A stretch of DNA of 64,000 bases from Norana najaformis (lineage: Eukaryota; Annelida; Clitellata; Crassiclitellata; Hormogastridae), in NCBI GenBank assembly GCA_964023275.1, contig OZ029916.1, positions 46,071,657 through 46,135,656 on the forward strand. Direction: 5' to 3'. The notes below the pieces were generated by a model. It saw only the letters and a program-made list of their open reading frames with translations. It searched no databases and was not told the origin of the DNA. Positions 5,072 through 44,226 of this stretch are shown one piece after another. The position numbers and the translations under genes are program-made. Every line of letters starts with the position of its first letter. Within the stretch, counting starts at the first letter, position 1.

Positions 5072-31446
<26,375 letters not shown>

Positions 31447-38117: not shown

Positions 38118-41100
38118 TTTAGTGCCCCTAGGTATGTATTATCCCTTAAGACTTAAAAACTTATTGGAGAAGAGCAACATTATTATTCATCATCATCATC
38201 ATCATTTATTTATTTATTTATTTATTATTATTATGATTTATTATTATTATTATTATTTTTAATTAAATAAATACTAAAAATTAATAGAGCAAAACTAATG
38301 CAAATAATAATGGCAGTAATAATAATTATTATTAGTAAATTACCAAAATCAGTACACCGATACTGATAGGTTTGTATGCCTGCTTCCTGTATATGAAGGT
38401 TCAACGGCGCACTGGACTGTATCCAGGACCGTCACAAGACCGTGGTTGAAACGATGGCCCAGGGAGTGATCGAGATGAAAAGTGAAGCATCAGACATGAT
38501 TCCGAATCTCGAAGGAAGGATTCACTACTTCCTCGATCGATTCTATCTCAGCCGGATCAGCATTCGAATGCTTATTCATCAGCATCGTCAGTTGAAGAAT
38601 TGCATTTGTTTTTGATTAGTGAATGAGCAGGGTGATTCGGTGATGCATGGTGATACATGGTGATTCGGTGATGCGTGGTGATTTGGTGATGCGTGGTGAT
38701 TTGGTGACCTGTGGTGTTCTTATGATTTCATGGTGATTTGTTGACGCATGGTGATTCAGTGACATATGGTGTTCGGGTGAGTGCGTGGTGATTTGATCAT
38801 GTATGATGATTCGGTGATGCATGGTGATTTGGTGATGCATGATTATTTGGTGATATAAGGTGATTTGGTGATGCACGTGATTTGGTGATGCATGGTGATT
38901 TGGTGATGCATGTGATTTGGTGATGCATGGTGATTTGGTGATGTATGGTGATTCGGTGATGCTTGGCGATTTGGTGATATGTGGTGATGCAAGGAGATTA
39001 ACTCATGGTGAGTGATGCATGGCGATTTAGCGATGTGTGGAAACTGACCTATGCTCAGTGATGCATGGTGATTTGGTGAGGCATGGTGATTTACCTTTGG
39101 TAAATGATGCAGGGTGATTTTTGGTGGTGTGTGGTAAGTGATTTTTTTTCAGTTTCTTTGTCTTACTTGAATATTTGTTTATTTGTTGCATTTTCAGTGC
39201 TGTTGTACGGCGACATGGATAATCCGTCTCGACACATTGGTTGCTTCGATCCGAGTTGTGATGTTCTTTCCGTGGCTAAAGGTAAGTGTCTCAACATCTT
39301 CATTTCTTGTCATAAAGAAATGTTATCCAGGAAAAATATGTACATACATGCATACATACATATATACATACATACATACCTACATATATACATACATACA
39401 TACATACAGACAGACAGACATATACAGATAAACAGACAGACATACATGCAAACATACATACATACTTGCATTCTGGATTAATTTAGTTTGAATGTCGATT
39501 TTTGTAGATGCGTATGAAAATGCTCGATTTCTCTGTGAACAGTACTACAGTTCGGCACCTAAGTGTGACTTCCAGTGTCACAAACGTGAGTTACTCATGA
39601 AAATCTTTCCCACATGATTTACAAGGCATTCTGATGATCACCAGCTGTCCTTGTGGTTTATATGATCAAGACTTGTCCAGATCTCTGCAGAATTTGTGTC
39701 CCCTTGCGATCTGAGGTAATAACTAAGTAGACTGACTGTACAGTGTCTGTTAGGAAGATCTAGAGGTGAGGGAGAGGATTGGCCACCTGGCCTCCTATGC
39801 TGAGTTCGAGAAAATGAAGTTGGTAGCACTTCATACCTATAGCTGCCTATTGGCGTTATCTAAAGGACCGCTTCACTTCTTCTTTTATGTTTTATAAAGT
39901 ATTTAAGATAAAGATATTTAACAATAAGGCAGAAATTCTTCCATGCATGAGTTGTTACTTGTGAAATGGTTTGGATAGAACTCTATCTGTTGTCTTATCT
40001 TGTCTTGTCTGCAGTCATGGTCGAGCCGAGGATTGGCTGCCCGTGGACAATTTTGTGCCATCTGCTTCTGTCCCTCGTCTCTTGTAATGACTGGTCGAAT
40101 GATAATTCAGTCCATGATTTGATGTCGATCCGTGTCATCTTGGTTCTTCCCTGAGTTCGGGATCCAGGAATTGTGCATTGGCTGTCTCAGTTACTATCTA
40201 GCTTTTAAGATCAAGTTACAGGAAGGGACTTGCTATTGAGCTTTAATTGAGTCTATAATTGCAATGGTTCTAACACAGATTAAATGTCTTCTGGAGGACT
40301 TAAAAGCCTTGTTGTATTATGCGTTGCATCTTTTTGCATGAAATTGATTGTTGGTGAATGTTATTTCAGCCTACGATCCAGTTAGCGAGACAGGTGACCA
40401 GAATGACCGCATTGTGATGACCTATGTACCAGCCCACCTGTACTACATGCTCTTTGAACTCTACAAGGTATATTCTTTAGATGTATTCATCATTGTCTAC
40501 GCTACCACTGCTGTGTCGCCACTGTCATCATCGTCGTTTTCGTCATCATTGTTATGGTTGTTGTCATCCTCGTTACTACTACGTCAGCCAGCACAAACAT
40601 CACCATCGCCATCATCGCTACCACCACCAGTACCACCACCTCAGGATCATTGTCATCATATCATCATTATAATCATCAGCAGCAGTATCTGCATCGTCAT
40701 CATCGTCATTATCATCATCATCATCATCATATTTTTATTCTCCACCTCATCATCGCAGAATTCCTTCTGTTAATCTGATTCACTTTAAGAATTTCCAGCC
40801 TTCCAATGAAGCTCACATGTGATCTGATTTTAGAATGCCTTGCGTGCAGTTGTCGAGTTCCACCACTACAAGCCCGCTCTTCCAAACGTGGAAACTCTGA
40901 TCTGCAAAGGCCGTGAAGACGTAACAATCAAGGTGAGCTCACAGGGCATTCTTAGCATAATTGTTATCCTGAGAAATCTTTTTAATTGTTATCCTGAGAA
41001 ATCTTTTCTATTTGATATATTTATTTCTTATTAAACATTTCTTTTTGATTAGCACATCTTTCTACATATTTATTTTGATTTGTGTTTTTCTGATTCATTG

Positions 41101-44100
41101 ACTTATGGACTTATGTTTTTATCGACTTTTTTATTGGCATTTTTCAATTTAATTTCATGTTGACTGACATCTGATCTTGCTTGACATATTTCAGTTTGAA
41201 CATTATTTTTTGTTCAGATTTATTTCTTTTAGATTGAGATTTATTTTTAAATGACTCAGTTCTTTTGGATTGACATATTTCTTGGTAATTTGGATATTTC
41301 TTGTTGATTTCTTGGTAATTTGGATAATTCTTGTTGATTTCTTAGTAATTTGGATATTTCTTGTTGATTGACATTTCATTTTGATTGACAGATTTCTGTT
41401 TGATTGACAGATCTCTGACCAAGGAGGTGGTGTTTCTAGAAGTGATGCGGATAAACTCTTCCATTACATGTACACGACAGCTCCAAAGCCTCCGTCACCT
41501 GATGCCATCCTGACAACTCCTCTGGTCTGTTCTTTCTTCTTCTTCAAGTTCTCTGGCCCGTATCCGTCCACCATCATCGAGTCTAGTAGCTTTTGTCTAG
41601 GTCTTCCTCTTCTTTTCTTTCCTTCCATTCTTCCCTCAGTGGTATCTCTTAAAAGGGAACCACCTCTTAGTATGCATCCAATCCATTTCCTCTGTCTTGT
41701 TTTTATTGTAGCCATCTTGTCTGTAATTCACGTAAATCCACGTAACAAAAATCACTTTAACAGATGTAGCAAACGAAAACGAAGCAGCAGAGTGGAACCA
41801 TTACGAAGCGTAAAAGATGTAATAGTTGGATTTTAATTATGTGTTACACGACGGTGGTAAAGTTACCGTATCTGCCTGTTGTATTTTGGATCCTGAGATA
41901 TCGCTGGAGGGCTACTGAAAGTGATGAAGAGGTCCTTTTATGTCATGTTGTTAGTGCCTAACTACTTCAGTTGTATTTTGGATCCTGAGATATCGCTGGA
42001 GGGCTACTGAAAGTGATGAAGAGGTCCTTTTATGTCATGTTGTTATTGCCTAACTACTTCAGTTGTATTTTGGATCCTGAGATATCGCTGGAGGGCTACT
42101 GAAAGTGATGAAGAGGTCCTTTTATGTCATGTTGTTATTGCCTAACTACTTCAGCGCATTTACAGTGCATCTAGTTACATCATCTTCCTTTAGTAATTCA
42201 TCTAACAGATGCATTTGTATAGAGCATCTTTCTTGAAGAGCTGCTATACAAATTTCAGATTACAATTAGTTACAATATGCATCATTGGTAAATAACTGTA
42301 TTTTTCTAAATGTAATTGCACTTGTATGATTGCAGTTATAACACAATGTAACAAATGGTATCAACAACTCATTACAGTTGTAATGTAATTAGGCATTTAT
42401 TTAGCGCCTTTTTGCTACTTAAATTTGAGATTTATACGCAATGTTTCATTGGGCAGTTGTATTGATATTTTTAAAGGCTGGTTATGGCTATGGTCTGCCT
42501 ATATCGAGACTGTACGCCAAGTATTTCAACGGCGATCTGTGGCTGAATACGGTCGATGGACATGGAACGGATGCAATGGTTGCTCTTAAGGTACGTGTCT
42601 CTCGATTCATAATGGTTGCTCTTAAGGTACATGTCTCGATTCATAATGGTTGCTCTTAAGGTACATGTCTCTCGATCCAAAATGGTTGCTCTTAAGGTAC
42701 ATGTCTCTTGATCCAAAATGGTTGCTCTTAAGGTACATGTCTCTCGATCCAAAATGGTTGCTCTTAAGGTACATGTCTCTCGATCCAAAATGGTTGCTCT
42801 TAAGGTACATGTCTCTCGATCCAAAATGGTTGCTCTTAAGGTACATGTCTCTCGATCCAAAATGGTTGCTCTTAAGGTACATGTCTCTCGATCCAAAATG
42901 GTTGCTCTTAAGGTACATGTCTCTCGATCCAAAATGGTTGCTCTTAAGGTACATGTCTCTCGATCCAAAATGGTTGCTCTTAAGGTACATGTCTCTCGAT
43001 CCAAAATGGTTGCTCTTAAGGTACATGTCTCTCGATCCAAAATGGTTGCTCTTAAGGTACATGTCTCTCGATCCAAAATGGTTGCTCTTAAGGTACATGT
43101 CTCTCGATTCAAAATGGTTGCTCTTAAGGTACTTGTCTCTCTATTCAAAATGGTTGCTCTTAGGGTACGTGTCTCTCGATTCAAAATGGTTGCTCTTAAC
43201 GCGTCTCTCAGTTCATAATGATTGCTCTTAAGATACATGTCTCTCTATTCATAATGGTTGCTCTTAAGGTACATGTCTTTTGATTCAAAATGGTTGCTCT
43301 TAAGCTACGTGTCTCTCGATTCAAAATCCAGCCGTTGTTTGATGTTTAAACATCTTTCGTTTTGTTCTGTATTTATGTTTGTGTTTGTCCACTCTACAAT
43401 TCCTCGCTCAGTTGATGGACGTATGGCATGTTAACAAATGCATTACATACTTACTTACTCAGATGGCACTGTTGCTTTGAAAGTGTGAGCATTTGTCATG
43501 CACTGTTAAAGATTATGCACTTTCTTACTTACCTCCAGTGACTAACTGTAACGTAATGTGCTTGGATGGGATGGGTGACCTTCTGTGGAAGACCATGCCA
43601 CCTGGCACCCACTTGCTTTTACATCCTTTATTGACCAGTATGCGAGTACCAGAATACACAGTCGAAGGTTAAAAAAGGAATCCCGTCGCTGGGTTGCTAT
43701 GGTCATGTTTGTGCCTCAGTCAAATGTTCCTTATTCCTTGGAAGCAACCTGTACAGGTTCTTAATGTTTCCTGCATTTGTGAAATTTTTTAAGGGGGCAT
43801 TATAAACTATTGTATGGATGAATTATTTATATTATTATATTGAATTTATCACGTACACAAGGTCAGTAAATCTGAATATGAGGCGTGAAGCAGTTGTAAC
43901 TGAAGGACTTTCTCAAGGACCCTACACAGTTACCGTCTCAGGGGAGGCTCAAACCCATACACTCCACATTACAAGCCGAGTACTCTACCCAATCAGCTAC
44001 CCAACTTTTCACTACAGTGCCCCACATGTAAACATGTTGCCTTTAGCTTCTTAGCCGATAATTTCAGGTGTTTCCAAAAGATGCCAGTGAACTGCTGCCT

Positions 44101-44226
44101 GTCTACAACAAGACCTCCTCACAGAGGTACACGGCCACCGTTCAGGCCAAGGACTGGAGCGAACCAGTCGACGGGTTGGGACTTCACCGCAACCGAGTTG
44201 ATAGCTTCCCATCGACCAACCACTAA
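36484..44226 (+). CDS. PDK: Pyruvate dehydrogenase kinase, mitochondrial (11 exons, 415 aa)
   Basis: Exons: 36484-36583, 37268-37409, 37816-37887, 38399-38586, 39198-39281, 39508-39585, 40370-40467, 40834-40932, 41411-41524, 42477-42590, 44068-44226; all phases join and give 416 codons. The enzyme phosphorylates and inactivates the E1 subunit of the mitochondrial pyruvate dehydrogenase complex. Visible family marks: PVRLANTM near the N-terminus, [18 protein letters not shown], the GHKL/Bergerat ATP site with N-box ([14 protein letters not shown], about residue 251), G1 box SDQGGGV (about 289) and G2 box [13 protein letters not shown] (about 327), and the C-terminal DW motif (about 392). The N-terminus is short, basic and amphipathic, as in a mitochondrial presequence. 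Length matches animal PDKs (about 400-435). BCKDK is less likely because of the DW tail. The donor of exon 10 lies in a tandem array. Confidence 0.95.
37495..37632 (+). repeat. 16-bp minisatellite AAGCTTATGCACAAAG, about 8 copies
   Basis: Almost identical units inside a family 1 LINE 3' end (ends GGTGCTGTAGAAATCTCAAG at about 37682). PDK intron 2. Confidence 0.9.
38625..39100 (+). repeat. GGTGATTTGGTGATGCAT degenerate array
   Basis: Units of about 17 bases through most of PDK intron 4, beginning about 40 bases after the donor. A CATA array follows in intron 5 (39340-39460). Confidence 0.8.
41525..41715 (-). pseudogene. Antisense LINE ORF C-terminal fragment at the PDK exon 9 donor
   Basis: The minus strand reads [32 protein letters not shown] and DSMMVDGYG, the well-known C-terminal end of many animal non-LTR retrotransposon ORF2 proteins (WIGHxLR, EGxxxGxRxRGRPR). 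It starts exactly at the 5' end of PDK intron 9, so the intron's first bases are retroelement sequence in antisense. Confidence 0.7.
41879..42160 (+). repeat. 92-bp tandem repeat, three copies
   Basis: Unit starts TTGTATTTTGGATCCTGAGA and ends GCCTAACTACTTCAG; copies nearly identical. PDK intron 9. Confidence 0.9.
42576..43330 (+). repeat. 36-bp array that repeats the PDK exon 10 end and its splice donor
   Basis: Unit ATGGTTGCTCTTAAG|GTACATGTCTCTCGATCCAAA (bar added at the splice point). The first 15 bases are the last five codons of exon 10, and the second part is the start of intron 10. About 18 units keep AAG|GT; the second unit is 34 bases long; the last few units are degenerate. Confidence 0.92.
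43885..44003 (-). mobile_element. tRNA-Thr-like SINE
   Basis: The minus strand reads GTAGCTGATTGGGTAGAGTA, GCTTGTAATG (TGT anticodon position) and GGTTTGAGCCTCCCC, then a body shared with 49040-49145 (TTACTGTGTAAGGACCTTC type). In PDK intron 10. Confidence 0.6.

Follow-up and report, generated by a model that had tools for sequence, protein, structure and literature searches.

The 64,000-nucleotide stretch of the Norana najaformis genome analyzed here (hereafter the window) carries a gene for pyruvate dehydrogenase kinase (PDK) in which a 36-bp unit, joining the final 15 coding bases of the penultimate exon (encoding MVALK) to the first 21 bases of the following intron, is repeated 21 times head to tail at 42576-43327, running into the intron. 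We consider it quite probable that this array is a near-neutral minisatellite spanning an exon-intron boundary, of the kind described in lancelets as a "mirage," and that its first donor remains the dominant one. The phenomenon is already in print and, judged by its sequence, the PDK array joins the lancelet mirages and the repeats of the human F7 gene as a further case.

Structure of the array

Tandem Repeats Finder placed the array at 42575-43327, with a period of 36, 21.1 copies, 94% matches and a score of 1261. The core form of the unit is ATGGTTGCTCTTAAG|GTACATGTCTCTCGATCCAAA. When the array was split at the unit start, 18 units were 36 bp long, copy 2 was 34 bp and copy 18 was 32 bp, with the last copy having an arbitrary end. 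The 19-mer ATGGTTGCTCTTAAGGTAC, allowing up to three mismatches, occurred 20 times in the window, every time within the array, compared with 0.01 occurrences expected from shuffling, and a chance origin of the array was rejected on this basis. The parts of the array are as follows:

42576-42611, forward strand: copy 1, with 15 exonic bases, the authentic donor AAG|GTACGT at 42591 and 21 intronic bases
42612-42645, forward strand: copy 2, 34 bp, with donor AAG|GTACAT at 42627, use of which would insert 12 in-frame residues
42646-43113, forward strand: copies 3-15, the homogenised core, all with A at +5; 11 of the 21 copies (3 and 5-14) equal the consensus
43114-43327, forward strand: copies 16-21, the diverged distal edge, with GT missing in 18, 19 and 21 and G at +5 in copy 17

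Of the 21 copies, 18 (1-17 and 20) have GT where the donor belongs, and 16 (1-15 and 20) have the exact motif AAG|GTACRT. An earlier reading of the stretch, made from the sequence only, had counted about 18 units keeping AAG|GTACRT, a figure that holds for the GT and is slightly high for the full motif. Its description of a ladder of near-identical donors does not hold at +5, a base that matters: among the 17 downstream GT copies, the G of the authentic donor recurs in copy 17 only, and of the other 16, 15 have A and one has T there; across all copies, G at +5 is present in 1, 17 and 21. At unit position 32, copies 1-2 and 15-21 share a variant T that is absent from the core.

An antisense open frame of 257 codons (42471-43244, minus strand) crosses the array, as can happen when the repeat period is divisible by three; it was not counted as evidence for a gene.

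The host gene and its paralogs

The last two exons of the host gene matched the structures of human PDK3, PDK2, PDK1 and PDK4 in phmmer searches, with a best E of 6.6e-20 for PDK3, which bears out the PDK identity first proposed in the sequence-only reading. The match of the same exons to the branched-chain kinase BCKDK was much weaker (about 4e-5), placing the kinship with PDK, not with BCKDK. Matches to PDK located further exons of the gene at about 37.3-41.5 kb in the window. The exon-intron boundary at the array was placed by homology and by the paralogs, not by cDNA:

42477-42590, forward strand: penultimate PDK exon (exon 10 of the sequence-only reading), ending in GTDAMVALK in phase 0, identified by phmmer to human PDK structures with acceptor and donor read from the DNA
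44068-44226, forward strand: last coding PDK exon (exon 11 of the same reading), holding the DW of QAKDWSEP and ending in the stop TAA

That reading had correctly given both donors (42591 and 42627), the length of 34 bp for unit two and position 44068 as the first of the next exon. An Rfam scan at the gathering threshold and a tRNA scan of the window returned no matches.

As a DNA query against the species' own genome (608 Mb in 17 contigs), the array found one place, the window itself, and a dispersed satellite is thus unsupported, within the limits of a search that passes over simple repeats and highly frequent words and leaves absence elsewhere unproven. The genome also contains two further PDK genes, on C12 and C2, plus two weaker matches. 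All three PDK genes agree in the exon end (DAM[VI][AC]LK; DAMIALK and DAMICLK in the C12 and C2 genes) and in the position of the phase-0 intron, and neither paralog has a repeat at the corresponding exon boundary. Because both paralogs share the exon end and the intron without a repeat at the boundary, both features are older than the array, and the array therefore represents coding sequence copied into an intron, as the sequence-only reading had maintained. The same shared intron position led us to reject the birth of a new intron by tandem duplication (the Rogers model). Repeats were found at 0 of 36 exon edges in the two paralogs, where 9 of 10 exons were found in each and some edges are alignment ends.

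Two observations concern C12 and C2. The C12 gene has, in its corresponding intron, a 23-bp unit repeated over 2 kb (about 6731-8748 in the joined and reverse-complemented pieces L010 and L044); this array stops 13 bases before the exon start and leaves the AG uncrossed. On C2, at about 0.2-15 Mb, there is a cluster of dozens of partial matches to the kinase domain (profile positions about 5-128), suggestive of a large gene family in that region; the search from which they come gave 138 matches, with 131 of 1895 candidates scored, and its best matches lay mostly over long open frames.

Donor strength and consequences of alternative donors

Duplex energies were calculated for pairing with the 5′ end of U1. 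The most upstream donor, donor 1, is also the best U1 match of the array (-8.3 kcal/mol), followed by copy 17 (-7.7 kcal/mol), with the other 16 downstream GT copies at -5.6 kcal/mol. The most likely reading is that the array is tolerated because its first donor is both the strongest and the most upstream.

Use of donor 2 at 42627 would keep the frame and add 12 residues, as the sequence-only reading had claimed. With any GT donor from the third on (donors 3-17 and 20), the first in-frame stop would be the following:

42657-42659, forward strand: stop TAA

The distance from this stop to the last exon junction, presuming an intron-free 3′ untranslated region, is 1, 37 and 73 nucleotides for donors 3, 4 and 5, respectively, and at least 73 nucleotides for GT donors from the fifth on. 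Nonsense-mediated decay in its classical form needs a stop located beyond a limit of 50-55 nucleotides upstream of the last exon junction. Because the stop lies only 1 and 37 nucleotides before the junction for donors 3 and 4, inside that limit, these two donors would be expected to escape classical decay and to yield a stable message that is truncated and lacks the last exon of the protein; the decay targets would be donors from the fifth on only. The sequence-only reading had all later donors shifting the frame and leading to decay. Its expectation of decay stands from the fifth donor on and fails for donors 3 and 4, and the frame shift is not universal, since donor 20 (+678) restores the frame length, yet it meets the same stop as donors 3-17.

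A second boundary repeat and the repeat background

Another repeat reaches a splice site of the same gene, at the acceptor of the exon at 41411-41524:

41356-41417, forward strand: boundary-spanning repeat of a 19-bp unit, ATTTCTGTTTGATTGACAG, extending to the acceptor CAG|ATCTCTG and over it
41037-41355, forward strand: decayed upstream copies of the 19-bp acceptor unit in the same intron of the PDK gene

The acceptor-spanning unit ends in GATTGACAG and forms a tandem pair 19 bp apart. Five places in 40933-41355 match it with up to five mismatches; the average over 200 shuffles was 0.13, with no shuffle reaching five. We read this as an older, now decayed array of the same type that apparently arose from a 3′ splice site.

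We also aligned a 36-base probe for each of the 18 PDK boundaries to its own intron and to 200 shuffles. Two of the 18 probes beat all 200 shuffles: that of the array donor, with a score of 63 vs. a shuffle maximum of 27, and that of the donor of exon 41411-41524, whose 28 vs. 27 comes from a CTT-rich sequence that we took as low complexity. At the 41411 acceptor the 36-base probe, a less direct test than the 19-bp unit as a probe (0 of 200), was equalled or exceeded by 5 of the 200 shuffles; 5 of 200 shuffles likewise equalled or exceeded the probe of the acceptor at 40370.

The window is rich in tandem repeats, with 18.9% covered by repeats of any period, including many long tri- and tetranucleotide arrays, and 13.4% by repeats with a period of 7 or more. 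Repeats made up 23% of one paralogous stretch, 9% of the other and 3.4% of the 109,779 bases of 30 kinase loci. Sliding the 18 PDK splice sites over the window gave no enrichment of repeats at these sites, with 2 observed vs. a mean of 2.4 and 63% of shifts reaching 2, in a test which covers one 64-kb window, ignores selection on exons and has a few of its 18 positions off by 1-2 bases. Because the observed number does not exceed that expected from sliding, the overlap of splice site and repeat needs no special cause here. In the intron preceding the array exon, a 92-bp unit is repeated three times (41878-42154) with 99% matches, which looks like a recent duplication.

Comparison with known systems

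Lancelet mirages are known in Adh3, the globins BflGb6 and BflGb9, troponin C and PGBD5 (PMC3087553; PMC3902484). They are repeats across a real exon-intron boundary, and the PDK array likewise spans such a boundary, as placed by homology and paralogs. Many, but not all, mirage copies keep AG/GT, and the core is homogenised with the edges excluded (PMC3087553); here 18 of the 21 copies have retained the GT, the core copies 3 and 5-14 do not differ from one another, and T at position 32 is shared by copies 1-2 and 15-21. Units of the Adh3 mirage measure 10-72 bp, a range that includes the 36 bp of the PDK unit. The systems differ in the gene involved and in copy number (21 copies vs. 6 and 3 in two BflGb6 haplotypes), and the PDK array was read from the DNA of one assembly. 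Mirages are reported as leaving regular splicing undisturbed (PMC3087553; PMC3902484).

Intron 7 of human F7 contains a variable number of 37-bp repeats with a working donor in the first unit, and the most upstream donor alone is normally used (PMC6627357). The change of G to A at +5 of this donor leads to exon skipping and to use of downstream cryptic donors (PMC6627357), and most copies of the PDK array differ from donor 1 by this same disease base at the same position. A tandem-repeat polymorphism of F7 intron 7 has the alleles H5, H6 and H7 (PMC3166910). F7 is a human clotting gene, with no homology to the PDK array. We take the H5/H6/H7 polymorphism to be that of the 37-bp repeats, with fewer units than the PDK array.

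Intron gain through tandem duplication of AGGT segments is represented by the Rogers model, ATP2A1 and fission yeast 24-bp repeats (PMC4974935). The PDK array is also a short tandem duplication with AG|GT; it differs in that its intron was pre-existing, at a position common to three paralogs, with no new intron shown. A paper on C. elegans ties intronic minisatellites to alternative splicing (PMC4039745). No report of the PDK array itself was found among the papers listed in searches of open-licence literature, of which one, with 10 of 530 papers listed, was aimed at PDK.

Origin of the array and alternative explanations

A short duplication may have straddled the 5′ splice site of the PDK exon by chance, and slippage or unequal exchange would then have extended it into the 21-copy intronic array. 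The simplest reading of the +5 bases would be an ancestral unit with G at this position, an early intronic copy that lost it and a core that then expanded. Copy 1 would have been held constant as PDK-coding sequence with a working donor, the core copies would have been homogenised, and the distal copies would have decayed. The spliceosome would mostly pick donor 1, and the array would be nearly silent: donor 2, with its 12 additional residues, and the later donors, which would cut the protein short of the C-terminal tail, would see little use if any. On this account the array is probably harmless.

Several points weigh against so quiet a role. The -5.6 kcal/mol of the downstream copies is within 0.1 of one donor of the same gene (-5.7) and beats two others (-3.9 and -1.6), all three placed by homology, and the paralogous donors of the array exon, also without G at +5, score -5.7 and -6.8, close to the copies' pairing. 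The downstream copies would thus not be too weak to work, and leaky use is possible. The mirage authors themselves warn that the copies could be cryptic sites and propose mirages as a source of new introns (PMC3087553), and in lancelet PGBD5 one annotation makes an exon out of repeat copies, an exon that the authors omitted (PMC3902484). Sites in the exonic part of the unit are less often variable than those in the intronic part (3 of 15 vs. 13 of 21; Fisher p = 0.019, with each indel base taken as a site and copies that are non-independent), which could at most hint at constraint. The limits of the sliding test belong here too.

The alternative that survives best, although we regard it as unlikely, is a regulatory rheostat in which the array competes for U1, so that a share of transcripts dependent on copy number is spliced from donor 2, which would lengthen the link to the tail, or ends in truncated or decayed products, and array length would set the level of PDK. 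The sequence-only reading had likewise suggested that the array may tune kinase level. The approximately equal U1 pairing of the donor copies and the paralogous donors is consistent with this, as is the stop at 42657-42659, which would give a clean truncation just ahead of the tail exon and lies at least 73 nucleotides before the last junction from the fifth GT donor on. However, G at +5 is kept at the authentic donor and missing from 16 of the 17 downstream GT copies, the regular donor is the one used in the printed mirages and in F7 intron 7, and the PDK paralogs manage without an array at this boundary.

Two further proposals are each less probable than the rheostat. The copies could act unspliced as an intronic landing pad, weak U1 sites that help to define the true donor or protect the intron against premature polyadenylation, in keeping with the 17 additional GT-bearing donor-like sites within 680 nucleotides of the true donor; but no sequence feature separates a landing pad from neutral copies, and the paralogs do without the array. 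Equally improbable is a mutable splicing dial, in which copy number varies between individuals and sets the share of PDK transcripts with the 12-residue insert or of tail-less products. If true, such a dial would put a central metabolic switch under a control that is inherited and evolves rapidly.

Least probable of all is an assembly artefact, with a real copy number far smaller or an inflated array, for although eleven copies are identical and one lancelet mirage seems mis-assembled in its draft genome (PMC3087553, supplementary legend), the edge copies have variants of their own, two copies have indels, the genome is in 17 contigs and the 753-bp array is shorter than the usual long read.

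Significance

The array offers a clean natural test of how the spliceosome chooses one donor among 18 similar, consecutive ones. It also adds another case of splice boundaries seeding minisatellites, in a gene that seems to hold an older, decayed repeat derived from an acceptor. The array is of use as a model and as a warning for those who annotate genes, rather than as the discovery of a new kind.
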